Origin: Xanthobacteraceae bacterium
GTDB lineage: Bacteria > Pseudomonadota > Alphaproteobacteria > Rhizobiales > Xanthobacteraceae
Direction of reading: 5' to 3'
NCBI GenBank assembly: GCA_029239875.1
Contig: JARBUD010000022.1
Coordinates: 1-64,000 of the forward strand
Length of the DNA: 64,000 nt
Below the pieces are notes generated by a model. The model did no database searches. It saw nothing but the letters and a program-made list of their open reading frames with translations, and was not told the DNA's origin. The translations under genes were made by a program, and so were the position numbers. This document shows positions 4,422 to 27,124 of this stretch, piece by piece. Numbering within the stretch: position 1 is the stretch's first letter; each line of letters begins with the position of its first letter.

Positions 4422-5363
4422 TCACGCCCGATCCCGCAGCGCCTTTTCAAATGCCGGCACGATCTCGAATAGGTCGCCGACGAGGCCATAATCGGCTACC
4501 TGGAAGATCGGTGCTTCCTCGTCCTTGTTCACCGCCACGATGACCTTGGAATCCTTCATGCCGGCGAGGTGCTGGATGGCACCGGAAATGCCGCAGGCGA
4601 TGTAGAGGTCGGGCGCTACCACCTTGCCTGTCTGGCCGACCTGCCAGTCGTTCGGCGCATAGCCCTCGTCCACCGCTGCGCGCGAGGCGCCGACCGCCGC
4701 GCCGAGCGTGTCCGCGAGCGGCAGAAGAACCTCCTCGAATTTTTCGGTCGAACCAAGCGCGCGGCCGCCGGAGATGACTATCCTGGCGGAGGTCAGCTCG
4801 GGCCGGACAGTCTCCGACAGCCGGTTTCCAACGCAGCTCGACAGGCCGGGATCGCCAGCCGACGGCACCGTCAGGACGGGCGCCGCCCCGCCCTGCGATG
4901 CTGGCGCGAAGGAGGCTGGGCGCACGGTGACGATCTTGCGGGAATCGAGTGCCTGCACCGTCTGGACCGCATTGCCGGCATAGATCGGACGTTTGAAGGT
5001 ATCGGGCGCGACGACCTCGATGATCTCCGAGACCTGCGCGACGTCGAGCAGCGCGGCGACGCGCGGCGCGACGTTCTTTCCCGAGGAGGTCGCCGGCGCC
5101 AGGATGGTGTCGTAGCCGTCGGCCAGCGACACGATCAGTGCCGCCAGGGGTTCGGCTAGCCGCTCGGCCAGTTCGTCGGCCTCCGCCAACAGAACCTTCC
5201 GCACGCCCTTCAGCCCGGCGACAGCCTCGGCGGTGGGCCGGGCATGGCTGCCGGCCACCAGCACATCGATGTCGGTCCCGATCAGCAGTGCGGCCGAGAG
5301 CGCCCTTGCGGTCAGTTCCATCACGGTCGCGTTGTCATGCTCGGCAATCAGCAGAATGGCCAT
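4422..5363 (-). CDS. etfA: Electron transfer flavoprotein alpha subunit
   Basis: A 313-aa EtfA. The N-terminal domain begins [11 protein letters not shown]; the C-terminal FAD domain carries the ETF-alpha signature around residue 255-290 ([20 protein letters not shown], then [10 protein letters not shown]). With EtfB it accepts electrons from a flavin dehydrogenase and passes them to ETF-ubiquinone oxidoreductase. I start it at 5363 because AAGGAAG lies six bases upstream; an in-frame ATG two codons earlier overlaps that site. It follows etfB and a DAO-type dehydrogenase on the same strand. Together these suggest a dedicated ETF for that dehydrogenase rather than the housekeeping beta-oxidation ETF, which is an inference from context. 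Confidence 0.95.
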
Positions 5364-5435
5364 CTTCATCTTCCTTGGGTTCCGCCCGGCTCGTCCGGTC
5401 GTGTCGACCCGCACAGGGCGCCCGGCGCCGCGGCT

Positions 5436-6185
5436 TCACAGAACGCAGGCTTCGTTACTTAGCTTGTCGATTAGCTCGGCGACGGAGGCGACCTTCACTC
5501 CCGGCTTGCGGGCATGGGGCTCCTCGGTTCTAAGAATCTTCAGCCGCGGCGCGAGGTCGACGCCGTAGGAGGCCGGCGACTTCTCGTCGATCGGCTTCTT
5601 CTTCGCCTTCATGATGTTGGGAAGGCTGGCATAGCGCGGCTCGTTGAGGCGCAGATCCGTCGTCACGATGGCCGGCAGCTTTAGTTCCACCGTCTGCAGG
5701 CCGCCGTCGACTTCCCGCGTCACCCGGGCCTTGTCGCCTTCGACGGCGAGTTCGGACGCGAAGGTGCCCTGTGCCCAGCCAAGCAGGGCCGCGAGCATCT
5801 GGCCGGTCTGGTTGCAGTCGTCGTCGATCGCCTGCTTGCCGAGAATGACCAGCCCCGGCTGTTCGGTCAGCGCCACGCCCCGCAGCACCTTGGCGACGCC
5901 GAGCGGCTCGACAGCCTCGTCCGTGCGCACGAGGATCGCGCGGTCGGCCCCCATCGCCAGCGCGGTGTGCAGGGTCTCCAGCGCCTGCGCCGGCCCGATG
6001 GAGACGACCACGATCTCCTGCGCCTTGCCGGCCTCCTTCAGGCGCAGCGCCTCCTCGACGGCGATCTCGTCGAAGGGGTTCATTGCCATCTTGAGATTGG
6101 CGAGGTCCACGCCCGAGCCGTCCGCCTTCACGCGGACCTTCACATTCCCGTCGACCACCCGCTTCACGGGCACGAGAATCTTCAT
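5436..6185 (-). CDS. etfB: Electron transfer flavoprotein beta subunit
   Basis: A 249-aa EtfB, starting [20 protein letters not shown] with AAGGAG eight bases upstream at a start decided by that site. It shows the family's [19 protein letters not shown] segment and the AMP-binding region ([10 protein letters not shown], then [13 protein letters not shown]). The C-terminus contains [12 protein letters not shown], the segment that docks partner dehydrogenases. It forms the AMP-binding half of the ETF heterodimer. It lies 37 bases after the FAD dehydrogenase and 72 bases before etfA, so the three are probably one transcript together with the upstream aldolase gene. Confidence 0.95.
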
Positions 6186-6222
6186 CGTCGCTTCTCCTTG
6201 ACGCGCGCCTGCTCGGCGGCCG

Positions 6223-7440
6223 TTAGATGACGGCCTCTTCGAGGAACGGCTCGTTGCGCGGTATGCGCTCATAGTGGAAGGGTGAGAGATCGAGGGTCTG
6301 GAACGACCCGTGGATGATCAGCTCGGAGACGGCGCGCCCGACCGCCGGCGACTGCTGCAGGCCGTGCCCGGAGAAGCCGTTGGCGAACATGAAGTTCGTC
6401 ACCTCCGGGTGGAAGCCGACGATGCCGTTGTGATCGAGCATGTTGTACTCGTAGTGGCCGGTCCAGCACTGCTGCACCTTCAGCGCCTCGAAGGCGGGGA
6501 TGCGGTGCCAGAGCGCCGGCCAGATGCGCTCGTCGAATTCCTCGTGATGCATCTGGAAGTCGTCGTAATCGGCCGGACCGTCGTCGACCGGGGTGTTGCC
6601 GGTGAGGAAGAGCTCGCCCTCGGGGCGCACGAAGGTGCCGGAGAGGTCGATGACGTTGGGCATCCGGCCGGGGATCGGGACGGCGCTGGAGAACACGAAG
6701 CTGTAGCGCTTGAAGGGCGCGACGGGGATCGACAGCCCGGCCATCGCGGCCACCTGCTGGGCGCGCGGGCCGGCGGCGTTGACCAGCGTGCCGCAGGAGA
6801 CGGTCTCGCCGGTCGCGAGCTGCGCGGCGACGACGCGCCCGCCGTCGACGGTCAGCCCGGTGACGGCGTTGTCGATATACTCGACGCCGCTGGCGCGGGC
6901 GGCGCGCCGAAAGCCGTTCAGCAGGCCCATGGAATCGAACCAGCCCTCGTCGCGCGAGCCCCAGGCGCCGCCGCCGAGATCCTCGACGTTGAGCCAGGGG
7001 AAGCGCTCCTTCAGCGGGCCGGGCTCGAGGAACACGGTGTGGGCGCCGAGGCTCCGCTGGAGATCGACCCGCGCCTTCGCCGCCTCCACGCCGTCCGGCG
7101 AGCAGCAATAGAGGTAGCCGTGCTCCTTGAAGCCGAGATCGGGCGCCGGCTCGTCCTTGTAGAAGGGCTTCATCCGCTCGGCGAAGCCGCGGATGATCCC
7201 GATGCCGAACTGGCTGATCTTCACGTTGATCGGGTTGGAATATTGCTGGCGGATCGCGCTGGTCGACAGGGCGGTGGAGGAGAACTCGTAGCTGCTGTCG
7301 CGCTCCACCACGAGGATGGACATGCGGCCGCCCAGCGCCTGGCTGAGCCAGTAGGCGACGGAGGAGCCGACCACCGCGCCGCCGACGATGACGATGTCAT
7401 AGGCCGGGCGGGACGGCGCCTTGTAGGGAGGGACGGCCAT
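6223..7440 (-). CDS. DAO-family FAD-dependent amine/amino-acid dehydrogenase
   Basis: A 405-aa protein of the D-amino-acid oxidase/sarcosine oxidase-beta fold. The dinucleotide-binding motif is at residues 15-35 ([20 protein letters not shown]), a second FAD strand near 150-190 ends [18 protein letters not shown], and the C-terminal FAD lid reads [20 protein letters not shown]. Family members oxidise secondary or primary amines (sarcosine, dimethylglycine, glycine, D-amino acids) to imines. With etfBA immediately downstream, electron transfer to ETF rather than to oxygen is likely, as in dimethylglycine and sarcosine dehydrogenases. No folate-binding aminomethyltransferase domain is present, so formaldehyde capture by tetrahydrofolate is not encoded here. 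The start at 7440 is 13 bases after the aldolase stop. Confidence 0.85.
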
Positions 7441-7453
7441 GCGAACGCTCCGC

Positions 7454-8218
7454 TCAGCGGTTGAAGGAAGCGACCAGCGCGTCCGACCCGCGGGCCAGCA
7501 GGCCGAGATCCGAGCCGACCGCGACCATGGTGAAGCCGTCCGCGATGTAGCGGTCGGCATCGGCCTTCACCGGCGCCAGAATGCCGCTCCCCTTGCCGGC
7601 CGCCGCGGCCGCCTCGCGCACGGAGGCGATGGCCTCCTGCACGTGCGGCGCGCCGGGATTGCCCATGGCGCCCATGTTCGTGGAGAGGTCGCCGGGCCCG
7701 ACGAAGAGCACGTCCACCCCTTCCACCGCCGCGATCTCGGCGGCGTTGGCGACGCCGGTCTCGCACTCGATCTGCACCGCCAGAAGCTGCTGCTGGCGCG
7801 CATTGGCGTGGTAGCCGGCGATGCGGCCGAAGGAATTGGCGCGGTGCGCGACGGAGAAGCCGCGAATGCCATGCGGCGCGTAGCTCATGGCCGAGACGAT
7901 GGCGCGGGCCTGATCGGCGGAGCGCACGTTCGGGATCATCAGGCTGCGCGCACCGGCATCGAGCATCTGCTTGATGAGGTCGGGATCGTCGGAGCGCAGC
8001 CGCACGGCGCCCTCGCAGGCCGAGCCGTTGAGGACCTGAAGCTGGGACACGATGCTGCGCAGGTCGTTGGGGCTGTGCTCGCCGTCGATAAGAACCCAGC
8101 CCACGCCCGAACCGGCGACGATCTCGGTGGTCAGGGCCGAGGCGAGGGAACACCACAGGCCGATATGCGCCCGCCCGGCGGTGACCGCGGCCTTCAGGGA
8201 ATTGGGACGCTCCTGCAT
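7454..8218 (-). CDS. HpcH/HpaI family aldolase
   Basis: A 254-aa class II pyruvate-type aldolase. Characteristic parts are LCSLAS-like strand 1 (IGLWCSLASALTTEIVAGSG), VLIDGEHSPND with the base His and acidic residues near 45-50, PNVRSADQAR near 100, VQIECETGVANA near 150 with the metal-binding Glu, and VGPGDLSTNMG with the metal-binding Asp. The family reversibly cleaves 4-hydroxy-2-oxo acids to pyruvate (or glyoxylate/tartronate semialdehyde type products) and an aldehyde. It is the first gene of the leftward operon and faces an AroE-like gene across a promoter region with an inverted repeat. It presumably supplies the final C-C cleavage of the pathway; the substrate is unknown. Confidence 0.9.
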   Translation of the reverse strand: MQERPNSLKAAVTAGRAHIGLWCSLASALTTEIVAGSGVGWVLIDGEHSPNDLRSIVSQLQVLNGSACEGAVRLRSDDPDLIKQMLDAGARSLMIPNVRSADQARAIVSAMSYAPHGIRGFSVAHRANSFGRIAGYHANARQQQLLAVQIECETGVANAAEIAAVEGVDVLFVGPGDLSTNMGAMGNPGAPHVQEAIASVREAAAAAGKGSGILAPVKADADRYIADGFTMVAVGSDLGLLARGSDALVASFNR

Positions 8219-8254
8219 CTCGTCTGTCTCCGGCGAAAACGCGAATTGAAATTT

Positions 8255-8275
8255 GTATGATGTCCTATATCATAC
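8255..8275. promoter_or_regulatory. Candidate regulator operator in divergent promoter
   Basis: The 179-base divergent spacer between the aldolase and AroE-like genes contains a perfect inverted repeat, GTATGAT (8255-8261) and ATCATAC (8269-8275), separated by seven bases. A second small palindrome, ATACGTAT, overlaps its right end. The AT-rich patch stands out against GC-rich surroundings. Size and form suit a dimeric GntR/FCD regulator such as the one encoded at 10494, which would then control both directions. That assignment is inference. Confidence 0.6.
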
Positions 8276-8397
8276 GTATTTGACGGCTCGCAACGGGATC
8301 TTGCGCCGCCCGCGGCGGCGGGGAGGCAAGAGCGAAGACGAGCCGCCGGCGCCCGGCGCGCCGGCACCCGAATGGCCGAAGGAAAGGAAGCAGACCG

Positions 8398-9210
8398 ATG
8401 CGCGGGACAGGCAAGGCGGACGTCTTCGTGATGCTGGCTCACCCAGTGGGGCACGCGAAAAGTCCGGGTGTCTTCAACGAGATCTTCGAGCAGAAGGGCC
8501 TCGACAGCCTGATGGTGCCGATGAGCTGCAAGCCGGAGGATTTCGACACCTTCTGGGCCGGCCTCACCGCGGCCGAGAACGTGCGCGGCGTCATCGTCTC
8601 CGTGCCCTACAAGGCGGCGGTCTACCGCAAATGCGCCGCCGCGCACGACCGCGCCGCGCGGGTGCGGAGCGCCAATTCGGTCCGCCGGCAGGCCGACGGG
8701 ACCTGGTACGGCGACAATTTCGACGGCGTCGGCTTCATCGACGGCCTGAAAGCCGGCGGCCACGCCATCGCCGGCCGGCGCATCCTGCAGGTGGGGGCCG
8801 GCGGCGCGGGCGCCTCGCTCGCCTATTGCCTCGCGGAGGCCGGCGCCCAGGAGATCCGCCTCGCCGACATCGACGCCGACCGGGCCGAGAACCTCGCCGC
8901 ACTGGTCCGCAAGACCTTCCCGCAGTGCCGGATCGAGGTCGGCGCGGCCGATCCCTCCGGCATGGACATGGCGGTCAACGCCACCCCGTCCGGGCTGAAG
9001 GCCGGCGACCCGCTCCCCATGGACGTCGGCCGGCTGACGCCGGAGATGACGGTGGTGGACATCATCATGGAGCCGGCCGAGACGGCGCTGCTGCGCGCGG
9101 CGAAGGAGATCGGCTGCCGCATCCAGCCGGGCCGGCCGATGATGGACTTCCAGGTCCGCGGCATGTCCGAGTTCTTCGACATCGAGCGCCGGAGCCGCGG
9201 CAATGGCTGA
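8398..9210 (+). CDS. Shikimate/quinate dehydrogenase-like oxidoreductase (AroE paralogue)
   Basis: A 270-aa AroE-fold enzyme. The substrate domain includes VSVPYK (the catalytic Lys position) and GDNFDGVGF (catalytic Asp position); the nucleotide domain has ILQVGAGGAGASLAYCLAEA. The usual SxS shikimate-clamping pair is altered: the segment reads HPVGHAKSPGVFNE, so the first Ser is Ala and the usual His before Asn is Phe. Together with its catabolic setting, this suggests that it acts on something other than shikimate. GGAAGCAGACCG precedes the ATG. Its stop overlaps the next gene by eight bases, so the two are translationally coupled. Confidence 0.85.
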   Translation: MRGTGKADVFVMLAHPVGHAKSPGVFNEIFEQKGLDSLMVPMSCKPEDFDTFWAGLTAAENVRGVIVSVPYKAAVYRKCAAAHDRAARVRSANSVRRQADGTWYGDNFDGVGFIDGLKAGGHAIAGRRILQVGAGGAGASLAYCLAEAGAQEIRLADIDADRAENLAALVRKTFPQCRIEVGAADPSGMDMAVNATPSGLKAGDPLPMDVGRLTPEMTVVDIIMEPAETALLRAAKEIGCRIQPGRPMMDFQVRGMSEFFDIERRSRGNG

Positions 9211-10021
9211 GGCGGGGACGCACGCACGCACGGTCGTCGTCACCGGCGGCACCTCCGGGATCGGCCACGCCATCGCCCTGCGCTTCGCCGAGGACGGTAG
9301 CCGGGTCGCCGTCGCCGGACGCAGCGCGGAACGCGGCGGCGCGGTCGCCGCCGCCTGCATCGGCGCCGGCGCTCCCGATGCCCGCTTCTTCGAGACCGAC
9401 GTCGCCGACGCCGCCTCGGTCGAGGCTCTGGCGCAGGCGGTGGAGGCGGCGTTCGGCGTGCCGGACGTCGTCGTCAACTGCGCCGGCATCCTGCAGAGCG
9501 GCAAACATGTGCTCGACCAGGACCTCGACGAGGACGAGCGCATATGGCGGGTGAACTACCGCGGCACGCTGCTCGGCTGCCAGTCGTTCGGGCGGCGCCT
9601 GTCCGCCGCCGGGCGAGGGGCCATCCTCAATGTCGGCTCGCTCGCCTCCTTCGCGCCGCTGTCGCTGCCGGCCTACACGCCGGGCAAGCATGCGGTGCTG
9701 GCGCTGACGCAGATCCTCGCCGCCGAACTCGGGCCGCACGGCGTGCGGGTCAACGCGGTCGCGCCCGGCTACACGCTCTCCGACGGGCTGAAGGCCAAGA
9801 TCGCCAAGGGCGAGCGCAACCCGGAGGCCATCCAGGCGACGACGGCGCTGCGCCGCTTCGTCGAGCCGCGCGACGTGGCGGAAGCCGCGCTGTTCCTGTG
9901 CTCGGACCGCGCGGCCTCGATCACCGGGGTGACGCTGCCCGTCGACGCGGGATGGCTCATCCAGGCGCCCTATGCCCAGTACCTGCGGGGCAACCCGATC
10001 CGCCCCGCGTCCAATGTCTGA
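9203..10021 (+). CDS. SDR family oxidoreductase
   Basis: A 272-aa classical short-chain dehydrogenase. It has the cofactor motif TGGTSGIGHAIA near residue 14, a CAGI segment (NNAG equivalent) near 95, the catalytic Ser in VGSLASFAPLS, and YTPGK (YxxxK) near 160. The C-terminal part ends with TGVTLPVDAGWLIQ. It reduces or oxidises a hydroxyl/keto group with NAD(P). It starts inside the end of the AroE-like gene, and the RidA gene follows 13 bases later. In the pathway it is probably one of several steps handling hydroxy acid intermediates. Confidence 0.9.
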   Translation: MAEAGTHARTVVVTGGTSGIGHAIALRFAEDGSRVAVAGRSAERGGAVAAACIGAGAPDARFFETDVADAASVEALAQAVEAAFGVPDVVVNCAGILQSGKHVLDQDLDEDERIWRVNYRGTLLGCQSFGRRLSAAGRGAILNVGSLASFAPLSLPAYTPGKHAVLALTQILAAELGPHGVRVNAVAPGYTLSDGLKAKIAKGERNPEAIQATTALRRFVEPRDVAEAALFLCSDRAASITGVTLPVDAGWLIQAPYAQYLRGNPIRPASNV

Positions 10022-10034
10022 AAGGCCGAGACAC

Positions 10035-10382
10035 GTGACCGACATCCAGCGCTTCGACTTCGACACCCGCATCCACCACGGCGTGATCCATAACGGCACG
10101 CTCTACCTGACCGGGCAGGTGGCGACGCCCGGCCGCTCCGCCGCCGAGCAGATGCGCGAGGTGCTCGGCAAGATCGACGCGCTGCTGGCCAGGGCCGGCA
10201 CCGACAAGACGCGCATCCTGCACGTGCAGATGTGGCTCGACGACGTGCGCGACTTCGACGAGGTGAACACCGTCTGGGACGCCTGGATGCCCAGGGAGCA
10301 CGCCCCCGCGCGCTCCTCCGGCGAGGGCCGTATGGCCAAGCCGGGCATGCTGGTGGAACTGATCGTGACGGCGGCGGTGTGA
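10035..10382 (+). CDS. RidA family protein (enamine/imine deaminase)
   Basis: A 115-aa YjgF/YER057c/UK114 protein that starts at GTG 10035, just after AAAGGCCGAG. The core segments are NGTLYLTGQVATPG, LARAGTDKTRILHVQMWLDD and WDAWMPREHAPARSSGEGRM, followed by VELIVTA. The Arg in GEGRM falls where several Rid subfamilies place the residue that binds the substrate carboxylate. RidA proteins hydrolyse reactive imines/enamines formed by flavin amine oxidases or PLP enzymes. Location in the locus that also encodes a DAO-type dehydrogenase and an aminotransferase fits that role. Confidence 0.9.
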   Translation: MTDIQRFDFDTRIHHGVIHNGTLYLTGQVATPGRSAAEQMREVLGKIDALLARAGTDKTRILHVQMWLDDVRDFDEVNTVWDAWMPREHAPARSSGEGRMAKPGMLVELIVTAAV

Positions 10383-10492: not shown

Positions 10493-10493
10493 G

Positions 10494-11282
10494 ATGACGA
10501 AGCGCAAGCCGCTCTCCACCGTGGTGGCCGACAGCCTTCGGGAGAAGATCAGCTCCGGGGAATTGCAGCCGGGCATCCAGCTCCCGACGGAGGCCGAGCT
10601 CGGCGCCCAGTACGACGTGAGCCGCACCGTGGTGCGCGAGGCGGTGGCGCGCCTGCGCTCGGAGGGCCTCGTCGTCCCCCATCAGGGGCGCGGCATGTTC
10701 GTCAACGAGGCGCCGGTGCCGCGCACCTTCTCCATTCCCGACGAGGCGCTGCGGACCCTGCCGGAGACCATCGCGCTGCTGGAGCTGCGGCTCAGCGTCG
10801 AGGTGGAGGCGGCGGGCCTGTGCGCCGAGCGCCGGACGGAGGCGGAAGCGAGCGACATCCGGGCGCTGATGGAGCAGGTCGACGCGCGGCACGACGACCC
10901 TTCCGCCATCCAGATCCACTACGACTACGACTTCCACCTCGCCGTCGCCAAGGCGACGCGCAACGAGTTCATCTACGCCTTCCTGACCTATCTGCGTCCG
11001 ATCATCGTGCCGCGCTTCCAGCTCGGCCACGTCGTGGCGACGGACGTCAAGGAGGTCTATTACGCGCGCATCCACGCCGAGCATCGCGCGATCGTCGACG
11101 CCATCGGCAAGCAGGACGGGCGCGCCGCCCGGCGCGCCATGCGCGCCCATCTCGCCAACAGCCTCGAACGGGTCCGCGCGCTCGCCCTCGCCGCCGGCAT
11201 CGACGCCACCGATGTCGACCAGCAGGCGGCGGCCGCCGCGCTTTTCGCCGCGCTGAAGGGTGCCCCGCGCACGGAGAGGTGA
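10494..11282 (+). CDS. GntR/FadR-subfamily transcriptional regulator
   Basis: A 262-aa regulator. The N-terminal winged helix (residues 10-75) contains SLREKISSGELQPGIQLPTE and YDVSRTVVREAVARLRSEGL; the C-terminal FCD domain has metal-binding-type residues in YDYDFHLAVAKATRNEFIY (Asp and His) and later YARIHAEHRAIVDAI. FCD regulators release DNA on binding an organic or amino acid. The start is set by GGGAAGAGG about nine bases upstream. It lies within the catabolic locus; the inverted repeat at 8255-8275 is the best candidate site. Local slippage repeats in its leader could alter its own translation. Confidence 0.9.
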   Translation: MTKRKPLSTVVADSLREKISSGELQPGIQLPTEAELGAQYDVSRTVVREAVARLRSEGLVVPHQGRGMFVNEAPVPRTFSIPDEALRTLPETIALLELRLSVEVEAAGLCAERRTEAEASDIRALMEQVDARHDDPSAIQIHYDYDFHLAVAKATRNEFIYAFLTYLRPIIVPRFQLGHVVATDVKEVYYARIHAEHRAIVDAIGKQDGRAARRAMRAHLANSLERVRALALAAGIDATDVDQQAAAAALFAALKGAPRTER

Positions 11283-11553: not shown

Positions 11554-12267
11554 GTGACAACAGCCTTCATCACGGGTGCGACGAGCGGCATCGGGCGCGC
11601 CATGGCGGTGGCGCTGAGCGACGCCGGCTATGAGGTCTTCGCCGTCGGCCGCAGCAAGGCGGCGCTCGAGGCGCTGCGCTCGGAGCGGGCCGGCATCACG
11701 CCGATCGCGGTCGACGTGACCGACCGCGAGGCCATCGAGGCGGTCGTCAACGGGCTGCACATCGACGTGCTGATCAACAATGCCGGGATAATGCCGCCGC
11801 TCGGCAATTTCGCCGACATGAACCTCGCGGACATCGACGCCGCCCTGGAGGTCAATCTCAGCGCCGCCATCCTGCTCACCCGGCTGGTCGTGCCGCAGAT
11901 GCGCGAACGCGAATCCGGGCACATCGTCTTCACCGGCTCCTCGGCGGCCCACGCGGCCTTCCCCAACGTCGCGGTCTATTCGGCGACCAAGGCCGCCATC
12001 GCCGGCTTCTCCGCCGCCCTGCGCGCCGATCTCTCGCCCTTCGGCATCCGCGTGACCGAGATCGTGCCCGGCCGCGTCGAGACGCAGCTCTACAGGGACA
12101 TCCTCGACGCCAAGGCGCGGGCGGCGATGTACGCCGGCAACGTGGCGGTGCAGCCCGAGGACGTCGCGAAGATGGTCGTCGCCCTGCTCGGCCTGCCTTC
12201 CTGGGCCGACGTGACCCGCTTCGACATCATGCCGACCCGCCCCACCACCCCAAGCGGCAGCAAGTAA
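11554..12267 (+). CDS. SDR family oxidoreductase
   Basis: A 237-aa classical SDR starting at GTG 11554 with GGGAAAG upstream. It shows [12 protein letters not shown] at residues 7-18, NNAGIMPPL near 76, the catalytic Ser in [12 protein letters not shown], and YSATK near 147. The C-terminus is close to the clavulanate-dehydrogenase/YdfG type ([11 protein letters not shown]), enzymes that often oxidise 3-hydroxy acids such as serine or 3-hydroxypropionate. It is preceded by 271 bases without a gene, including an AT-richer patch near 11460-11500 that could hold its promoter, and is followed 13 bases later by a second SDR. Confidence 0.88.
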
Positions 12268-17483: not shown

Positions 17484-17494
17484 GGATGCGTCCC

Positions 17495-19726: not shown

Positions 19727-21397
19727 ATGGTGAGGAACGGGGGGTGCCTTCTGGTCGAGTGCCTGATCGCCTTGGGCGCGACCAAGAGCTTCGGCGTGCC
19801 GGGGGAAAGCTACCTCGCGGTTCTGAACGCCCTGCACGACACGGCCGGCCGGCTCGACTACGTGCTGTGCCGCAACGAGGGCGGCGCGTCCTTCATGGCC
19901 AGCGCCTACGGCAAGCTGACCGGCTCGCCCGGCATCTGCTTCGTGACGCGCGGCCCCGGCGCCACCAACGCTTCCATCGGCGTCCACACCGCCATGCAGG
20001 ACAGCTGCCCGATGATCCTGTTCGTCGGGCAGGTGGGCACCGACATGAAGGGCCGCGAGGCCTTCCAGGAACTCGACTACCGCGCCGTCTTCGGCACCCT
20101 CGCCAAATGGGCGGTGGAGATCGACGACGTCGCCCGGCTGCCGGAGATCATCGCGCGGGCCTGGACCACGGCGCTGGCCGGACGGCCGGGGCCGGTGGTC
20201 GTCGCCCTGCCCGAGGACATGCTGAGCACCGTCACCGACGTCGCCCCGCTCGACGGGCCGGCCACGCTGTTCGAGCCGGCCCCCGCCGGCGCGGCGGTCG
20301 CGGCCGTCCGTGCCGCGCTCGGGCAGGCGCAGCGCCCGCTGCTGCTGATCGGCGGCGCCAACTGGAGCGCGCAGGGACGCGCGGCGCTTCAGGCCTTCGC
20401 CGAGGGCTCGGACATCCCGGTCGTCGCGGCGTTCCGCTACCAGGACCAGTTCGATAACCACTCTCCGGTCTTCGTCGGCGAGGCCGGCGTCGGCATGGCG
20501 CCGCATGTGAAGGCGCTGATCCGCGAGGCGGACGTCGTCCTCGCCGTCAATGTGCGCTTCGGCGAGATGACCACGGACGGCTACACGCTGCTTGCCGTGC
20601 CGGCGCCGCGGCAAACGCTGATCCATGTGCACGCGTCGGATCGCGAGATCGGCAAGGTCTATGTGCCGGCGCTCGGCATCGTCGCCGGCCCGAACGCCTT
20701 CGCCGGGGCGCTGGCGCCGGTCATCGGGAGCTGGGGCGACTGGCGGCGCACGGCGCGGGCGGCGTACGAGGCCTCGTTCGAGGCGCCGGCCCAGCCGAGC
20801 CCGGTCGACATGGTGGCGGTGAGCGCCTGGCTGCGCGACACCCTGCCCGACGACGTGATCCTGACCAACGGCGCCGGCAACTTCACCGTCTGGCCGAACA
20901 AGTTCTTCCGGTTCGGCCGCCGCGCGCGGCTGCTGGCGCCGCAATCGGGCGCCATGGGCTACGGGCTGCCGGCCGCCATCGCCGCCAAGGTCGCCTTCCC
21001 CGGGCGCACGGTGGTGTGCTTCGCCGGCGACGGCGACTTCCAGATGAACTGCCAGGAACTCGGCACCGCCATGCAGGCCGGCGCGCAGCCGATCGTGCTG
21101 GTGCTCAACAACGGCGTCTACGGCACGATCCGCGCCCATCAGGAACGCACCTATCCCGCGCGCATCTCCGGCACCACGCTGGAGAACCCCGATTTCGTCG
21201 GGCTCGCCCGCGCCTACGGCTTCCACGCCGAGCACGTCCGCTCGACCGCCGACTTCGCCGACGCCTTCGGGCGGGCGCTCGCCTCGCCGACCGGCGCGGT
21301 CCTCGAACTTTCCATATCGGCGGAGGCGCTGACGCCCCGCCAGACCCTTTCCCAGATGCGCGATGCTGCGCTCGCTTCGCAGAAGGCCCACGCATGA
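19727..21397 (+). CDS. Thiamine-diphosphate-dependent enzyme (acetolactate-synthase-like decarboxylase)
   Basis: A 556-aa three-domain TPP enzyme. The catalytic Glu lies in CRNEGGASFMASAYG near residue 50. The central DHS-like domain spans about 190-330. The C-terminal TPP/Mg motif starts at GDGDFQMNCQELG and ends at VLVLNNGVYGTI. These enzymes decarboxylate 2-oxo acids or carboligate the product. Placement directly ahead of HyuAB and an aminotransferase, and not with an ilvN regulatory subunit, argues for catabolic 2-oxo acid decarboxylation instead of valine biosynthesis. It overlaps hyuA by ATGA. Confidence 0.88.
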   Translation: MVRNGGCLLVECLIALGATKSFGVPGESYLAVLNALHDTAGRLDYVLCRNEGGASFMASAYGKLTGSPGICFVTRGPGATNASIGVHTAMQDSCPMILFVGQVGTDMKGREAFQELDYRAVFGTLAKWAVEIDDVARLPEIIARAWTTALAGRPGPVVVALPEDMLSTVTDVAPLDGPATLFEPAPAGAAVAAVRAALGQAQRPLLLIGGANWSAQGRAALQAFAEGSDIPVVAAFRYQDQFDNHSPVFVGEAGVGMAPHVKALIREADVVLAVNVRFGEMTTDGYTLLAVPAPRQTLIHVHASDREIGKVYVPALGIVAGPNAFAGALAPVIGSWGDWRRTARAAYEASFEAPAQPSPVDMVAVSAWLRDTLPDDVILTNGAGNFTVWPNKFFRFGRRARLLAPQSGAMGYGLPAAIAAKVAFPGRTVVCFAGDGDFQMNCQELGTAMQAGAQPIVLVLNNGVYGTIRAHQERTYPARISGTTLENPDFVGLARAYGFHAEHVRSTADFADAFGRALASPTGAVLELSISAEALTPRQTLSQMRDAALASQKAHA

Positions 21398-23490
21398 CCT
21401 CCAGGACTGACGACATCCGTCTCGGTGCGGACATCGGCGGCACCTTCACCGACATCGCCCTCGACGTGCGGGGGACGATCTTCTCGACCAAGGTGCTGAC
21501 CAACTACGCCGCGCCCGAACAGGCGATCCTGGACGGCCTGGAGATCGTCGCCCGCGACGCCGGCATCTCGCCGGCCGAGATCGGCCTCGTCATCCACGGC
21601 ACGACGCTGGCCACCAACGCGCTGATCGAGCGGCGCGGCGCGAAGACGGCGCTGATCACCACCGAGGGATTCCGCGACGTCATCGAGATGCGCACGGAAA
21701 ACCGCTTCGAGCAGTACGACCTGAACCTGAAGCTGCCCACGCCGCTCATTCCGCGCGAGCACCGCTTCACCGTGAAGGGCCGCATCGGCGCCGAGGGGCA
21801 GGAACTGCAGCCGCTCGACGAGGCCGCGCTCGAGGAGATCGCCGGCACCATCGCCACTGGTGGCTTCGGCGCCGTCGCGATCGGCTTCATCCATTCCTAC
21901 ATGAACCCGGCGCATGAGCGGCGGGCGCGCGCGATCCTCGCCCGCCGGCTCTCGGTGCCGATCTCGATCAGCGCCGAGGTCTCCCCGCAGATGCGCGAGT
22001 TCGAGCGCTTCAACACGGTCTGCGCCAACGCCTATGTCCGCCCGCAGATGGCGGACTACCTCGCCCGGCTGCAGACCCGGCTCAAGGACATGGGCGCGAC
22101 CTGCCCGGTCTTCATGATCCATTCGGGCGGCGGGCTGATCTCGGTGGAGACGGCGTCGGAATTCCCGGTCCGCCTGGTGGAATCCGGCCCGGCCGGCGGC
22201 GCGATCTTCGCCGCCGACATCGCCCGGCGCTTCGACCTCGATTCCGTCGTCTCCTACGACATGGGCGGCACCACCGCGAAGATCTGCCTGATCGAGGACT
22301 TCGCGCCGCAGACGGCGCGGACCTTCGAGGTCGCCCGCACCTATCGCTTCTGCAAGGGCTCGGGCATGCCGATCTCGATCCCGGTGATCGAGATGATCGA
22401 GATCGGCGCGGGCGGCGGCTCCCTGGCCTGGGTCGACGCCATGGGGCGCATCCAGACCGGGCCGGAAAGCGCCGGCTCCGAGCCGGGTCCGGCCTGCTAC
22501 GGCCGCGGCGGCGAGCGCCCCGCCATCACCGACGCCGATCTGGTGCTCGGCAAGCTCGACCCCGATAATTTCGCCGGCGGCGCCATCCGGCTCGACACCG
22601 CGGCGTCGCAGCGGGCGATCACCCGCGATGTCGGCGCCCGCCTGTCGCTGGAGCCGCAGGCGGCGGCCTTCGGCATCTGCGAGGTCGTGGACGAGAACAT
22701 GGCCAACGCGGCCCGCGTCCACGCCGTCGAGAACGGCAAGAACATCTCCGACAACGTGATGATCGCCTTCGGCGGCGCCGCGCCGCTGCACGCGGCGCGC
22801 CTGTGCGAGAAGCTCGGCCTCGACCGCTGCCTCGTCCCGCAGGGGGCCGGCGTCGGCTCGGCGATCGGCTTCCTCAAGGCGCCCTTCGGCTATGAGGCGC
22901 TGGCCTCGAAGCTGGTGCGGCTGTCGCGGTTCCGCGCCGACGAGGTGAACGCGCTGCTGGCCGACCTCAAGGCGTCCGCCGAGAGCTTCGTGCGCGCCGG
23001 CACCAGCGGCACGATCCGGCGCGAGATCACCGCCTTCATGCGCTATGCCGGGCAGGGCTGGGAAATCCCCGTGCCGCTGGCGGACGAACCCTTCGGCGAG
23101 GGCGCCGTGGCGGGCCTCACCGAGGCCTTCCGCCGGAACTACGCCCGCTTCTTCGGCCGCGCCATCGACGGCCTCGACGGCCTGGAGATCGAGGTCGTCA
23201 CCTGGTCGGTGAAGGCGAGCGACGAGCGCCCGGCGCCCGAAAGGCACACCATCACCACCGGCACGCGGACGGTGGCGGCGAGCGTGACGCGCCCGGTCTT
23301 CGACCCCGCAACCGGAACCACGCAGACATCCGCGATCGTCGAGCGCGCCACTCTCTCGGCCGGCGACCGCGTTCCCGGCCCGGCGGTGATCGTCGAGCGC
23401 GAGACCTCGACGGTGGTCACCACGACGTTCGACGCGGTCATGCAGAGCGACGGCGGGATACTTCTGGTCCGCAAGGAGATCGCGGCATGA
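21394..23490 (+). CDS. Hydantoinase/5-oxoprolinase family subunit A
   Basis: A 698-aa HyuA-type protein. It has the actin/acetate-kinase-like ATP site RLGADIGGTFTDIALDVRG at the N-terminus, HGTTLATNALIERRGAKTAL near 65, a second phosphate loop SYDMGGTTAKICLIED near 288, and FGGAAPLHAARLCEKLGLDR near 460. With HyuB it uses ATP to open cyclic amides (5-oxoproline, N-methylhydantoin) or, in acetone/acetophenone carboxylase relatives, to carboxylate ketones. Here A and B are separate genes, as in the bacterial hydantoinases. ATGA overlaps on both sides indicate translational coupling with the TPP enzyme and HyuB. Confidence 0.92.
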   Translation: MTSRTDDIRLGADIGGTFTDIALDVRGTIFSTKVLTNYAAPEQAILDGLEIVARDAGISPAEIGLVIHGTTLATNALIERRGAKTALITTEGFRDVIEMRTENRFEQYDLNLKLPTPLIPREHRFTVKGRIGAEGQELQPLDEAALEEIAGTIATGGFGAVAIGFIHSYMNPAHERRARAILARRLSVPISISAEVSPQMREFERFNTVCANAYVRPQMADYLARLQTRLKDMGATCPVFMIHSGGGLISVETASEFPVRLVESGPAGGAIFAADIARRFDLDSVVSYDMGGTTAKICLIEDFAPQTARTFEVARTYRFCKGSGMPISIPVIEMIEIGAGGGSLAWVDAMGRIQTGPESAGSEPGPACYGRGGERPAITDADLVLGKLDPDNFAGGAIRLDTAASQRAITRDVGARLSLEPQAAAFGICEVVDENMANAARVHAVENGKNISDNVMIAFGGAAPLHAARLCEKLGLDRCLVPQGAGVGSAIGFLKAPFGYEALASKLVRLSRFRADEVNALLADLKASAESFVRAGTSGTIRREITAFMRYAGQGWEIPVPLADEPFGEGAVAGLTEAFRRNYARFFGRAIDGLDGLEIEVVTWSVKASDERPAPERHTITTGTRTVAASVTRPVFDPATGTTQTSAIVERATLSAGDRVPGPAVIVERETSTVVTTTFDAVMQSDGGILLVRKEIAA

Positions 23491-25106
23491 GCAACGTGGC
23501 CGAAATCCGCATGCAGGTCATGTGGAACCGACTGATCTCGGTGGTCGAGGAGCAGGCGCTGACGCTGCTGCGCACCGCCTTCTCTACCTCGGTGCGCGAG
23601 TCCGGCGACCTGTCCGCCGGCGTGTTCAACCCGCGCGGCGAGATGCTGGCGCAGGCGGTGACGGGAACGCCCGGCCACGTGAACACCATGGCCGAGGCCG
23701 TGCTGCAGTTCATGAACGAGATCCCCCGCGAGGAGATGTTCGAGGGCGACACCTACGTCACCAACGATCCCTGGCAGGGCACCGGGCACCTGCACGACAT
23801 CACCATGGTGTCGCCGTCCTTCCTCAATGGCGAGCTCGTCGCCTTCTTCGCCTGCACGGCGCATGTCGTGGACGTGGGCGGGCGCGGCTTCGGCGCCGAC
23901 GGCAAGTCGGTCTACGAGGAAGGCATCCAGATTCCGATCATGAAGTTCGCCGAGCGGGGCACGGTCAATCGCGACCTGATCCGGATCCTGCGCAGCAACG
24001 TCCGCGAGCCCAACCAGGTGGTGGGCGACTTCTATTCGCTCGCCGCCTGCAACGATGTCGGCCACCGGCGGCTCGTCGACATGATGAACGAGATCGGCCT
24101 GACCTCGCTGGACGGGCTGGGGGAGTTCATCTTCTCGCGCACGCACGACGCCATGCTGGAGCGGATCAGGACCCTGCCGAAGGGGTCGTGGTCGAACGAG
24201 CTGGTCACCGACGGCTATGACGAGCCGGTCAAGCTGGCGGCGGCCGTCCGCGTGCATGACGAGCGCATCGACGTCGACTTCACCGGCAGCGCGCCGATGA
24301 GCCGATGGGGCATCAACGTGCCCATCATCTACAGCAAGGCCTATGCCTGCTACGCGCTCAAATGCGTGGTCGCGCCCGATATCCCGAACAACGCCGCCTC
24401 GCTGGCCTTCTTCACCGTCTCCTCGCCGACCAACATCCTCAACGCGGCCCGGCCGGCGCCGGTGGCGCTGCGCCATGTCATCGGCCACATGGTCCCTGAT
24501 CTCGTGCTCGGCGCGATCGCGCAGGCGCTGCCGGGCAAGATCCTCGCCGAGGGCGCGGCAGCGTTGTGGAACATCCACATCTCGGTGAGGCCCGCCAACG
24601 GCGCCGCCGGAAGACGCGCCGAGGTGCTGATGTTCAATTCCGGCGGCATGGGCGCACGCCCGGCGCTCGACGGGCTGTCGGCGACCGCCTTCCCCTCCGG
24701 CGTGCACACCATGCCCATCGAGGCGACCGAGCATACCGGCCCGATCGTCATCTGGCGCAAGGAGCTGCGCCCCGACTCGGGTGGCGATGGCGAGTTTCGC
24801 GGCGGGCTCGGGCAGGTGATCGAGATCGCCGCGACGGACGGTCACGAGTTCGATTTCTCGGCCATGTTCGACCGGGTGCGCCATCCCGCGCGGGGGCGTA
24901 ACGGCGGCCGCGACGGCGCTCCGGGCGTCGTGCAGCTCGACGATGGGACGCAGCTGCGGCCCAAGGGCTGGCAGCACGTCCCGGAAGGGCGGCGGCTGAT
25001 TCTGGAATTGCCGGGTGGCGGTGGCTATGGCGACCCCGCGAGGCGCAACGTCGATGCCCGAGCCGAGGACCGGTCCAAGGGCTATGTTTCGGAGAACGAC
25101 CGATGA
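23487..25106 (+). CDS. Hydantoinase/5-oxoprolinase family subunit B
   Basis: A 539-aa HyuB-type protein, the partner of the preceding subunit. Family hallmarks are EQALTLLRTAFSTSVRESGD near residue 20-40, NDPWQGTGHLHDITMVSP near 92 with likely metal ligands Asp and His, ACTAHVVDVGGRGFGADGKS near 128, and a C-terminal LELPGGGGYGDPARR. Length is a little under the usual 550-590 aa, with no obvious gap. It is coupled to the neighbouring genes through ATGA overlaps on both sides. Confidence 0.92.
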   Translation: MSNVAEIRMQVMWNRLISVVEEQALTLLRTAFSTSVRESGDLSAGVFNPRGEMLAQAVTGTPGHVNTMAEAVLQFMNEIPREEMFEGDTYVTNDPWQGTGHLHDITMVSPSFLNGELVAFFACTAHVVDVGGRGFGADGKSVYEEGIQIPIMKFAERGTVNRDLIRILRSNVREPNQVVGDFYSLAACNDVGHRRLVDMMNEIGLTSLDGLGEFIFSRTHDAMLERIRTLPKGSWSNELVTDGYDEPVKLAAAVRVHDERIDVDFTGSAPMSRWGINVPIIYSKAYACYALKCVVAPDIPNNAASLAFFTVSSPTNILNAARPAPVALRHVIGHMVPDLVLGAIAQALPGKILAEGAAALWNIHISVRPANGAAGRRAEVLMFNSGGMGARPALDGLSATAFPSGVHTMPIEATEHTGPIVIWRKELRPDSGGDGEFRGGLGQVIEIAATDGHEFDFSAMFDRVRHPARGRNGGRDGAPGVVQLDDGTQLRPKGWQHVPEGRRLILELPGGGGYGDPARRNVDARAEDRSKGYVSENDR

Positions 25107-26305
25107 GCTACATCTCCTCGCGCCTCGCGGTGGTCAAGCAGTCCGCCTCGATGGCGGCCTCGCAGGCGGCCAAGGCGCTGCGGGCCAAGGGCGTCGACGT
25201 CATCGACCTCGGCCTCGGCGAGCCCGATTTCCCGACCCCCACCCACATCATCGAGGCGGCCTATGCCGCGGCCAAGGCCGGGCAGACGCTCTACACCGGA
25301 GCGACCGGCACGCCGGAGGTCCGCGAGGCGGTAGCCGGCAAGTTCCGGCGCGAGGGCGGCCTCGACTACACCGCCAACGACATCGTGGTGGCCAATGGCG
25401 CCAAGCAGATCATCTTCAACGCGCTGATGGCGACGCTGGAGACCGGCGACGAGGTGATCCTGCCCGCGCCCTATTTCGTCTCCTACCCGGAGATGGTGAA
25501 GCTGCTGGGGGGCATCCCCGTCGTCGTCGAGTGCCCGGAGACGACCGGCTTCCGGCTGACGCCGGAACTGCTGGAGCAGGCCATCACGCCGAAGACCAAG
25601 TGGCTGTTCCTCAACATGCCCGGCAACCCCTCCGGCGTGGTCTATTCCGAGGGCGACCTCACGGCGCTGGGCGCCGTGCTGGCCCACCACCCGCAGGTGC
25701 TGGTGCTGTCGGATGAGATCTACGAGCACATCCTGTTCGACGGGCGCTCCTTCGTCTCGTTCGGCAAGGCCTGCCCGGAACTGAAGGACCGCAGCCTGAT
25801 CGTCAACGGCGTCTCCAAGTCCTATGCCATGACCGGCTGGCGCGTCGGCTACGCGGCCGGCCCGGCGCCGCTGGTCAAGGCGATGGCGACCATCCAGAGC
25901 CAGTCCGTCACGTCCGTCTGCTCAATCGCGCAGGCGGCGACGGTGGCCGCGCTCAACGGCCCGCAGGATGAGGTGGCGCGCTTCCGCAAGGCCTTCGAGG
26001 CGCGGCGCGACCTCGTCGTCGACGGCATAGGCGGGATCAACGGGCTGACCCTCTCGCCACCGGAAGGCGCCTTCTACGCCTATATCGGCTGCGCCGGCCT
26101 GGTCGGCCGTAGGACGCCCGCCGGTGTGGTGCTGGAGGACGATGCCGCCGTCGCCGCCTATCTGCTCAACGAGGGGCGGGTGGCGTCGGTGCCGGGCGTG
26201 GCCTATGGCCTGTCTCCCTATTTCCGCATCTCCACCGCGACCAGCGAGGAGGTGCTCACCGAGGCGGTGGCGCGCATCAAGGCCGCCGTCGCGCATGTGG
26301 AGTAA
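25103..26305 (+). CDS. PLP-dependent class I aminotransferase (aspartate/aromatic type)
   Basis: A 400-aa fold-type I aminotransferase of the AspC subgroup I-gamma. It shows DLGLGEPDFPTPTHI near 32, NGAKQIIFNALMA near 97, NMPGNPSGVVYSEGD near 172, and the PLP lysine in VSKSYAMTGWRVGYAAG near 236, with a C-terminal Arg region PYFRISTATS for the carboxylate. It moves an amino group between an amino acid and a 2-oxo acid; in the locus it could feed the TPP decarboxylase. It is the fourth gene of the coupled chain and is separated from the Udh-like gene by three bases. Confidence 0.9.
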   Translation: MSYISSRLAVVKQSASMAASQAAKALRAKGVDVIDLGLGEPDFPTPTHIIEAAYAAAKAGQTLYTGATGTPEVREAVAGKFRREGGLDYTANDIVVANGAKQIIFNALMATLETGDEVILPAPYFVSYPEMVKLLGGIPVVVECPETTGFRLTPELLEQAITPKTKWLFLNMPGNPSGVVYSEGDLTALGAVLAHHPQVLVLSDEIYEHILFDGRSFVSFGKACPELKDRSLIVNGVSKSYAMTGWRVGYAAGPAPLVKAMATIQSQSVTSVCSIAQAATVAALNGPQDEVARFRKAFEARRDLVVDGIGGINGLTLSPPEGAFYAYIGCAGLVGRRTPAGVVLEDDAAVAAYLLNEGRVASVPGVAYGLSPYFRISTATSEEVLTEAVARIKAAVAHVE

Positions 26306-26308
26306 ATC

Positions 26309-27124
26309 ATGCCGCAGTATGAACGCATCCTGATCACCGGCGCCGCCGGCCGCCTCGGCTCGGAGCTGCGGAAGGCGCTGGCGCCGCTGGCGGGCAGGAT
26401 TCGCCTGGCGGCGCGCGAGCCGCTGGGCGCGCTCGCGGTGCATGAGGAGGAGGTGGTCTTCGACCTCGCCGACATGGACGCCACCATCGCGGCGACCGAG
26501 GGATGCGACGCGATCGTGCATTTCGGCGGGGCGTCGCTGGAAAGCCCGTGGCAGACCATTCTGGACGCCAATATCCGCGGCTCCTACCACATCTACGAAG
26601 GCGCCCGGAAACACGGCGCCAAGCGTGTGGTCTACGCCTCTTCCGTGCACGCCATCGGCTATCACGAGGTGGAAGCCCAGATCGGCGTAGACGCGCCGGT
26701 GCGGCCCGACAGCCTCTACGGCGTGTCGAAGAACTTCGTGGAGAGCCTCAGCCGGCTCTACTGGGACAAGTTCGGCATCGAGTCGGCGTGCCTGCGTATC
26801 TTCTCGTCCTTCCCCGAGCCGGCCGACCGGCGCATGCTCTGGTCCTATCTTTCCTTTGCCGACTGCATAAGGCTGGTCGAAGGCTCGCTCACCGCTCCGC
26901 GCGTGGGCCACACCATCTCGTTCGGCATGTCCGACAACAGGGTGAAGACGGTCGACAACCGCGGCGCCAACCATCTCGGCTTCATCCCGCAGGACAGCTC
27001 CGAGCCGTTCCGCGCGGCGGTGGAGGCGCGCACCCCCATTCCCGACCCGGCGCGGCCTTCGGTGAAGTATCTCGGCGGCTGGTTCTGCGAGCTCGGCCAT
27101 CCCGACGACGAGCCGAAGAGGTAA
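26309..27124 (+). CDS. Uronate-dehydrogenase-like NAD-dependent epimerase/dehydratase family enzyme
   Basis: A 271-aa extended SDR. It has RILITGAAGRLGSELRKALA at the N-terminus, a DLAD strand near 51, HFGGASLESPWQTILDANIR near 70, YASSVHAIGY near 110 and SLYGVSKNFVESLSRLYWDK (YxxxK) near 136. Layout and length follow uronate dehydrogenase (Udh), which oxidises hexuronates to aldarolactones. Substrate identity is uncertain because the locus has no other obvious hexuronate genes. AAATC separates it from the aminotransferase stop, so it is probably the last gene of the same transcript. Confidence 0.82.
   Translation: MPQYERILITGAAGRLGSELRKALAPLAGRIRLAAREPLGALAVHEEEVVFDLADMDATIAATEGCDAIVHFGGASLESPWQTILDANIRGSYHIYEGARKHGAKRVVYASSVHAIGYHEVEAQIGVDAPVRPDSLYGVSKNFVESLSRLYWDKFGIESACLRIFSSFPEPADRRMLWSYLSFADCIRLVEGSLTAPRVGHTISFGMSDNRVKTVDNRGANHLGFIPQDSSEPFRAAVEARTPIPDPARPSVKYLGGWFCELGHPDDEPKR

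Follow-up and report, generated by a model that had tools for sequence, protein, structure and literature searches.

A block of 21 genes, at positions 4422 to 27124 of a stretch of DNA from a Xanthobacteraceae bacterium, is the subject of this study. The window, i.e. the whole stretch that was analysed, comprises 64,000 nucleotides, positions 1-64000 of one contig (JARBUD010000022.1) in a 5.07-Mb, 71-contig assembly (GCA_029239875.1), and gene families were called with Pfam and NCBIfam profile searches of its proteins. Four genes of the block run leftward: EtfA and EtfB, the alpha and beta subunits of an electron transfer flavoprotein (4422..5414, Pfam ETF and ETF_alpha; 5436..6185, start inferred, Pfam ETF 6.6e-41), a DAO-family flavoprotein (6223..7440, start inferred, Pfam DAO 2.4e-56) and a class II aldolase of the HpcH/HpaI family (ald, 7454..8218). 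All the others run rightward, beginning with an AroE-like dehydrogenase (8398..9210, Pfam Shikimate_dh_N), the short-chain dehydrogenase SDR1 (9203..10021, adh_short_C2), a RidA family protein (9972..10382, Ribonuc_L-PSP 2.2e-20), a GntR/FCD regulator (10494..11282, start inferred, Pfam GntR and FCD), SDR2 (11554..12267, adh_short), SDR3 (12281..13030, adh_short_C2) and a GcvA-like LysR regulator (13112..14062, start inferred, HTH_1 and LysR_substrate). They are followed by an amino acid importer of the ABC type, made of an AapJ-like binding protein (14138..15175, SBP_bac_3, 4z9n 5e-83), two permeases, AapQ-like (15243..16406, start inferred) and AapM-like (16410..17483), both BPD_transp_1, and an AapP-like ATPase (17486..18259, start inferred, ABC_tran). 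The series ends with a GlcD-like flavoprotein gene (18330..19561), a thiamine pyrophosphate (TPP) enzyme (19727..21397), HyuA (21394..23490), HyuB (23487..25106), a class I aminotransferase (25103..26305) and an SDR resembling uronate dehydrogenases (Udh-like, 26309..27124). This inventory agrees with that of the initial annotation in every family and place, except that the gene for the GlcD-like protein turns out to be broken.

The locus is a real, conserved catabolic block, found in many bacteria of soils and plants, and a chance arrangement is far from likely. Taking the AroE-like protein as query in a collection of 84,980 species, each represented by a single genome, we recovered 62 distinct loci (cited below by number), one of which, L064, is a 21-residue match accompanied by none of the block genes. 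Presence of the other genes was scored with tblastn, using 22 window queries (the 21 genes, glcD being split into two pieces) against the AroE-like loci, with HyuB-side stretches added, and requiring at least 45% identity and at least 70% summed coverage; the resulting table covers 49 genomes, 13 of the 62 loci, L054 among them, falling outside it. The AroE-like gene is there by construction in all 49, as the search key, and dao, sdr1, hyuB, the aminotransferase gene and udh are equally found in 49/49, a co-occurrence that bears out the earlier view of a single catabolic locus recurring elsewhere. Nearly as constant are ald, gntR and hyuA (48/49 each, the remaining hyuA being partial), sdr2, sdr3, lysR and the binding protein gene (47/49), aapQ and aapM (46/49) and aapP (45/49); rid (43/49), tpp (42/49), glcD (41/49) and a GarR-like reductase gene (39/49) come next, and etfA and etfB are found in 4/49 each. 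The link of the proposed amine dehydrogenase to an electron transfer flavoprotein, probable for the window, where EtfBA lies beside DAO, is thus lineage-specific. Since 35 of these genomes are Mesorhizobium, the 49 loci are not independent. The 14 others (Ancylobacter, Bosea, two Labrys, three Paracoccus, Pseudochelatococcus, Aureimonas, Lichenifustis, Roseovarius and three metagenome-assembled genomes) all possess dao, aroE, sdr1, hyuB, the aminotransferase gene and udh. The AroE-like protein is 100% identical in a Xanthobacteraceae metagenome-assembled genome (L003) and 99% identical in Ancylobacter moscoviensis (L004). Ancylobacter, Bosea, Labrys, Mesorhizobium, Aureimonas, Lichenifustis, Pseudochelatococcus and one Paracoccus (L050/L072) share the gene order of the block, though several of them lack single genes; the block is rearranged in the other Paracoccus (L045/L074, L055), in L056 (Roseovarius) and in L061 (a Paracoccaceae metagenome-assembled genome), and in these last two dao, udh, the aminotransferase gene, hyuB and hyuA adjoin one another. 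No generally recurring gene was found beyond etfA/dao or udh in the flanks of the 12 + 20 loci inspected, so that the limits first given to the block, 4422-27124, are about right.

What could such a block do? The Udh-like protein, to which no role had been assigned, gives a first clue. Among proteins of known structure it is closest to uronate dehydrogenases (with values such as 8.6e-76 and 1.3e-68), the next other family coming at 1.1e-13, and its YxxxK catalytic pair is present. Two positions of the uronate dehydrogenase pocket, residues 111 and 163 of UdhAt, are Asn and Gly (PMC4476818). They read Val and Phe in 51 of 55 homologues plus the window copy. In the same source, UdhOg of Oceanicola granulosus has Ile and Phe there and is poor on uronates, and its authors consider that the natural substrate may differ. 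Most homologues from our loci share with UdhOg the replacement of Asn by a hydrophobic residue and of Gly by Phe, and they differ from it in having mostly Val instead of Ile at the first position.

HyuA (Pfam Hydantoinase_A 2e-78; N-methylhydantoinase 7hk5 3.2e-105) displays the motifs DIGGTFTD, DMGGT and GSEPGP, and HyuB (Hydantoinase_B 3.7e-145) keeps 4/4 of the Asp-His-Asp-His metal ligands when aligned with 6yra_B, a structure that chain lengths and residue numbers lead us to identify as CapAB. These match the ATP motifs DxGGTxTD, DMGGT and GxxPGP and the metal ligands described for this kind of enzyme (PMC8453981), and by motifs and ligands the pair would be an ATP-dependent lactamase, its ATPase and metal subunits respectively, for which lactam hydrolysis is predicted. 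OplAB, an enzyme of the same kind, is strongly active on delta-valerolactam and shows trace activity on gamma-butyrolactam (PMC11033972). The DAO-family flavoprotein, our proposed imino acid dehydrogenase, has as best solved relative 1y56_B (6.3e-29), deposited as a sarcosine oxidase, and is also near dimethylglycine dehydrogenases. The aminotransferase is of the aspartate type (Aminotran_1_2; PRK06107 547 bits, below the cut-off of 617).

The remaining enzymes suggest what may become of the opened ring. The aldolase is GarL-like, its best solved relative being 2-dehydro-3-deoxygalactarate aldolase 1dxe (4.4e-68), and we propose that it acts as a 5-dehydro-4-deoxyglucarate aldolase. The TPP enzyme (NF006052, 766 bits for a cut-off of 539), a proposed 2-oxo-acid decarboxylase, is acetolactate-synthase-like; acetolactate synthases score above glyoxylate carboligases, and a stretch that we take to be the catalytic Glu region reads RNEG, so that glyoxylate carboligase is not favoured. 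A frameshift near 18.85 kb puts the N- and C-terminal domains of the GlcD-like protein in different frames, and near 19.2 kb the gene lacks about 174 bases present in A. moscoviensis, where it is intact and encodes 468 aa; many relatives likewise have an intact gene. Compared at the frameshift only, L003 has the same junction, which makes a flaw of the window record alone unlikely, though L003 and the window may come from almost the same genome. The intact Ancylobacter protein (L084) is closer to D-2-hydroxyglutarate dehydrogenase (6lpn, 2.5e-72) than to glycolate oxidase (7.1e-44), as judged by similarity, its top match, 3pm9 (1.8e-96), being described only as a putative oxidoreductase. The AroE-like protein, best related to 4k28 (2.7e-43) and with 5-ketofructose reductase 7cok also among its relatives, is divergent from true AroE: it scores 132.3 bits, below the AroE cut-off of 200.2 (TIGR00507). 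Across 60 entries, the window copy and the identical L003 included, it keeps a Lys and an Asp, which we take to be the catalytic pair, together with an Asn and a Gln, presumably binding or substrate positions like the SxS motif, the first Ser of which is Ala in 59/60. Action on the hydroxyls of a shikimate-shaped ring would fit, as a guess, with SDR1 as its partner.

Comparative evidence, above all from the relatives described below, points to six-membered hydroxylated imino acids, where the initial annotation had left the substrate class indefinite. Pipecolate oxidation at carbon 6 yields piperideine-6-carboxylate, and 6-oxopipecolate and piperideine-6-carboxylate are described as biomarkers of ALDH7A1 deficiency. 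We can picture the locus, with a probability that we set at even, as a nitrogen counterpart of the oxidative uronate pathway, meant for hydroxylated pipecolic acids, i.e. six-membered imino acids or imino-sugar acids. The importer would take up a hydroxylated pipecolate, and the DAO flavoprotein would oxidize a ring C-N bond to produce a cyclic imine, electrons probably going to the electron transfer flavoprotein in this strain. Once hydrated, the imine would have the shape of a uronic acid hemiacetal with nitrogen in the ring, and the Udh homologue, probably the lactam-forming enzyme, would oxidize it to a delta-lactam that HyuAB would open at the expense of ATP into a 2-amino-hydroxyadipate. 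This front end, from DAO through Udh to HyuAB, is the best-supported part of the mechanism and we hold it to be rather probable as written; that the substrate is of the hydroxypipecolate class is, to our mind, evenly balanced. The aminotransferase would then give the 2-oxo acid, with two possible fates. If a 4-hydroxyl is present, as in 4,5-dihydroxypipecolate, the product would be 5-dehydro-4-deoxyglucarate, which the GarL-like aldolase would split into pyruvate and tartronate semialdehyde, the latter being reduced by GarR to glycerate. With a 5-hydroxyl only, the TPP enzyme would decarboxylate 2-oxo-5-hydroxyadipate, an aldehyde dehydrogenase would make 2-hydroxyglutarate, and a flavoprotein, GlcD or YdiJ, would produce 2-oxoglutarate. 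The AroE-like enzyme and SDR1 (as well as SDR2 and SDR3) would adjust ring hydroxyls, perhaps by oxidation followed by re-reduction. The sequence of import, imine formation, ATP-dependent ring opening, decarboxylation and aldol cleavage proposed at the outset holds in this scheme as a conjecture, save that the last two look like alternative endings rather than successive steps; likewise RidA, present in 43/49, would help with imines and need not be the main imine hydrolase.

Relatives of the locus illustrate these endings. In the AroE-type loci listed, the GarR-like gene lies between ald and aroE, and its products in L009 and L056 (377.8 and 397.5 bits) are above the TIGR01505 cut-off of 340.75, as is the GarR of another kind of cluster, L168 (357.3 bits). 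Elsewhere the opened product may be directed to KdgD, of which the window locus has no copy. Aureimonas L079 combines HyuAB and an aminotransferase with a KdgD of 403.0 bits (TIGR03249 cut-off 373.95); Sinorhizobium meliloti L160 has GntR, RidA, importer, HyuA, HyuB, aminotransferase, kdgD (413.4, same model) and then an aldehyde dehydrogenase, the best models of which are ketoglutarate-semialdehyde dehydrogenases, with scores below cut-offs; Agrobacterium tumefaciens L166 has a similar set without annotated aldehyde dehydrogenase, KdgD being recognized by annotation and 80% identity; and in L171-L174, four genomes of one genus, RidA, aminotransferase and HyuAB are found with KdgD some 2 kb further on. 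In Rhizobium etli L167 and Mesorhizobium L168, Udh, a serine/threonine-type dehydratase, an annotated sarcosine oxidase/SolA, HyuAB, importer and KdgD come together, L168 (KdgD 400.2) having in addition GarR and an annotated RidA. By its name, the annotated oxidase is of DAO type. The best model of the L168 dehydratase is threo-3-hydroxyaspartate ammonia-lyase (239 bits for a cut-off of 452); at E 1e-30, no NCBIfam model was found for the L167 protein annotated as a semialdehyde dehydrogenase. A third ending associates the TPP enzyme with a D-2-hydroxyglutarate dehydrogenase of the YdiJ type, scoring 1404.7 in L083 and 1494.3 in L163 (cut-off 1350), with a YdiJ match of 65% in L165, and with GlcD plus an aldehyde dehydrogenase in Paracoccus L164. 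In L170 and L200, too, DAO and HyuAB have electron transfer flavoprotein genes nearby, and small HyuAB-DAO-Udh sets exist in L092, L095 and L162. HyuAB and an aminotransferase or dehydratase are therefore repeatedly near enzymes that process 5-dehydro-4-deoxyglucarate, or that would convert 2-oxo-5-hydroxyadipate to 2-oxoglutarate, and this is our principal argument for a six-carbon 2-amino-dicarboxylate after ring opening, hence for a six-membered lactam. Furthermore, the AroE-like gene and SDR1 accompany aldolase and GarR in L056 and L061, both without TPP or GlcD match, and in L083, L163 and L165 the stretch has TPP and YdiJ with no match to the AroE-like protein, SDR1 or the aldolase; this separation suggests that DAO, Udh, HyuAB and the aminotransferase are common to two modules.

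A further survey started from HyuB and disregarded its neighbours. Among the matches listed from 397 genomes of the order, window excluded, there were 34 places with a HyuB close to that of L079, and nearby lay udh (14 places), the aminotransferase (11), dao (8), rid (6), tpp and glcD (5 each) and kdgD (4); L181-L183 appear to be genomes already counted, the four kdgD carriers belong to one genus and several contigs are short. Ten HyuB loci at 54-57% identity (L098-L107) had udh in 0/10 and dao in 1/10, and ten closer than these (L088-L097) had udh in 3/10 and dao (at least 40%) in 2/10. Distant HyuAB pairs from the genomes with AroE-like loci (HyuB identity 27-34%), taken as a control, gave no match to udh, dao, garR or the aminotransferase in any of 20 at E 1e-8. 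They are accompanied by aldehyde dehydrogenases (32-41%) in 6/20 and by SDR and ABC-ATPase matches in many, and by single weak matches: aroE 41% (L113), ald 36% (L109), a partial kdgD 29% (L111), tpp 28% (L125), glcD 29-38% (L124), rid 35% (L115) and lysR 27% (L122). At the ends of the L113 stretch there are, in addition, pieces of GntR and ATPase resembling those of the window.

A number of observations weigh against the pathway proposed here for hydroxylated pipecolic acids. In 16 of the 34 close HyuB places neither Udh nor KdgD is nearby (some contigs being short), and the stretches of L160 and L166 have no DAO or Udh match; by tblastn, neither the annotated FAD-dependent oxidoreductase of L160 nor the sarcosine oxidase/SolA proteins of L167-L169 matched the window DAO. 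Model scores often fall below specific cut-offs: HyuAB reaches 467.7 and 175.2 bits for a caprolactamase CapAB cut-off of 1000 (NF050156/NF050157), the aldolase 265.1 for a GarL cut-off of 406.75 (TIGR03239), the GarR proteins of L009 and L056 fail the narrower PRK15059 and PRK11559 models, and no tested aldehyde dehydrogenase passes the cut-off of its model. The window locus itself has no GarR, which is absent or partial in 10/49, homologues in the own genome being at most 46% identical, and it has no aldehyde dehydrogenase for the 2-hydroxyglutarate branch, in addition to its broken glcD. The Udh pocket varies among the 55 homologues, L092 and L095 having Ile/Leu, and L056 and L061 keeping Asn/Gly, so the changed pocket does not mark the pathway universally. 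Finally, the roles given to the AroE-like enzyme and the SDRs are guesses, and why a lactam and ATP should be used, instead of opening of the imine to a semialdehyde, is unexplained.

Alternative explanations may be considered. One may imagine that what is imported is a lactam or an amide from the start, so that HyuAB acts first and DAO and the Udh-like enzyme come in afterwards or deal with side products; this would fit the sets of S. meliloti L160 and Agrobacterium L166, with importer, HyuAB, aminotransferase and KdgD and no DAO or Udh match in the stretch. The presence of DAO and Udh-like genes in 49/49 loci, together with the small HyuAB-DAO-Udh sets already cited, suggests rather that DAO and Udh feed HyuAB, and we hold import of a lactam to be unlikely. 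A five-membered ring is another option. HpcH/HpaI-type aldolases are promiscuous and the DAO family includes proline-type dehydrogenases, so that hydroxyproline-type imino acids might be processed to a gamma-lactam, 4-hydroxyglutamate and 4-hydroxy-2-oxoglutarate, split by the aldolase into pyruvate and glyoxylate; the HyuAB family, according to its Pfam name and to PMC8453981, includes 5-oxoprolinases. Against this, the endings seen in relatives (KdgD, D-2-hydroxyglutarate dehydrogenase, GarR and aldehyde dehydrogenases closest to ketoglutarate-semialdehyde dehydrogenases) have as substrates acids of six or five carbons, or tartronate semialdehyde, and the preference of OplAB for the delta-lactam points the same way, making the gamma-lactam route quite unlikely. 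An N-alkylated or amino-sugar acid as substrate, such as an N-methyl imino acid or an aminouronate, with DAO as a demethylase or deaminase, would be more improbable still: the resemblance of DAO to sarcosine and dimethylglycine enzymes, a GcvT/SoxA-type protein near the related locus L083 and the possible presence of N-methyl hydroxypipecolates in Amorpha fruticosa (PMC12299671) speak for it, and yet no folate-type partner is found among the 21 genes, and the constant association of HyuAB and Udh with DAO (49/49) would be left unexplained. That two unrelated loci stand side by side by chance, as separate regulation (GntR with the conserved palindrome on the left, LysR on the right) and right-half clusters without AroE-like or aldolase matches in their stretch (L083, L163, L164, L165) might suggest, is largely refuted, HyuB, aminotransferase and Udh being present in 49/49 AroE-like genomes of several families and the halves staying together even where rearranged (L055, L056, L061), and has a very small probability. 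A true hexuronate pathway was rejected, because none of the 21 genes is by family a lactonase, a lactone isomerase or an aldarate dehydratase, and because HyuB and the aminotransferase accompany Udh in 49/49.

The pathway that we favour, from hydroxypipecolate through a delta-lactam, resembles several known systems. With the oxidative uronate (Udh) pathway and its GarL/GarR or KdgD/ketoglutarate-semialdehyde dehydrogenase endings it would share a Udh-like oxidation of a ring carbon and the same downstream families acting on 5-dehydro-4-deoxyglucarate; it would differ in having nitrogen in the ring instead of oxygen, and a lactam opened by ATP-dependent HyuAB instead of a lactone, with a flavin-dependent oxidation added before and a transamination after. 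Caprolactam degradation by CapAB and an aminotransferase in Pseudomonas jessenii likewise has ATP-dependent lactam opening followed by transamination, HyuA motifs and HyuB ligands being kept; here the cell would probably make the lactam itself, starting from an imino acid, transamination would fall to an aspartate-type enzyme and HyuAB is far below the CapAB cut-offs. Pipecolate and D-lysine catabolism, which leads to 2-oxoadipate and D-2-hydroxyglutarate, resembles the proposed route by oxidation of an imino acid at ring carbon 6 and by its 2-hydroxyglutarate ending, and proceeds via a semialdehyde and an aldehyde dehydrogenase where our locus would use a lactam.

Among the literature matches listed we found no description of the locus or the pathway, in keeping with the initial annotation, which knew of no named pathway with this gene set; a term search inside the text of the rhizoSMASH paper returned no description of it either. 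Nor did the matches listed, in which subscription journals are mostly not covered, contain a bacterial route for the use of hydroxypipecolates. Two of the 62 AroE-like loci come from Mesorhizobium amorphae, a symbiont of Amorpha. Hydroxypipecolic acids, including 4,5-dihydroxy forms, are present in legumes (PMC6271146, PMC12299671), where hydroxylated pipecolic acids are said to be common and to be probable precursors of imino-sugar glycosidase inhibitors (PMC12299671); some, in part tentatively identified, are reported from Amorpha fruticosa (PMC12299671). The coincidence is circumstantial. It is conceivable, with a chance somewhat short of even, that we have here the first genetic description of the catabolism of imino-sugar acids (hydroxylated pipecolic acids), in which a Udh homologue would turn a cyclic hemiaminal into a delta-lactam opened by HyuAB with ATP, in modular forms spread in rhizobia and other bacteria, with an aminotransferase and then aldolase, KdgD or TPP enzyme and D-2-hydroxyglutarate dehydrogenase, or with a beta-hydroxy-amino-acid dehydratase and RidA for trihydroxylated forms; the orphan UdhOg may belong there. 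If this were true, one could test directly which organisms use hydroxylated pipecolic acids, from a defined gene set present in Mesorhizobium, Rhizobium, Sinorhizobium and others, a uronate dehydrogenase subgroup with a natural substrate left open (PMC4476818) would have a possible role, and a lactam-forming step would be added upstream of ATP-dependent HyuAB enzymes, widely annotated without substrate.

Regulation of the block may involve a palindrome at 8254..8276, in the divergent ald/aroE promoter. Its strict pattern is found in 50 of 57 upstream regions of ald, a set that includes the window copy and many closely related Mesorhizobium, and occurs once in the window, at that place only, which makes it a candidate site for the GntR protein. 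The upstream regions of other cluster types gave no match better than shuffled sequence. The generic TNGT-ACNA pattern was ruled out as a GntR operator, the window having no intergenic site of this kind.

Several minor observations complete this picture. Six of the surveyed places (L188, L192, L193, L196, L202 and L204) associate a close HyuAB with an SDR match (34-38%), some with RidA and an amino acid importer, without Udh or DAO match nearby, and are perhaps another lactam pathway. In L097 (7300-11000) a tandem HyuB pair, 54% and 57% identical to the window HyuB, follows a single HyuA, and in the Mesorhizobium control locus L113 (17300-19701) a partial match to the window GntR (67%) lies near the distant AroE-like gene (41%), an unrelated HyuAB being several kb away. 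An alanine-racemase-like protein after HyuB is conserved in clusters of the dehydratase type (L168:10645-11964, L167:10644-11960, L169:10646-11938); that of L168 matched no NCBIfam model at E 1e-30. L169, a related cluster outside the alphaproteobacteria, on the Klebsiella pneumoniae plasmid pINF192.3, has annotated SolA, Udh-like, HyuAB, alanine-racemase-like and RidA proteins with an amino acid importer; this plasmid is typed conjugative. Two AroE-type loci are on separate contigs of M. plurifarium STM8773 (L016, L020), and three AroE-like matches on short contigs of the Mesorhizobium sp. ORS 3428 assembly (L007, L032, L063), and the locus thus seems to be present more than once in some genomes. 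Lastly, L074, L078 and L128, from Paracoccus yeei and some Mesorhizobium, have, in addition to the DAO-family gene adjacent to ald, another one beyond udh, with 51-52% identity to the window DAO; some loci may therefore handle two substrates or stereoisomers.

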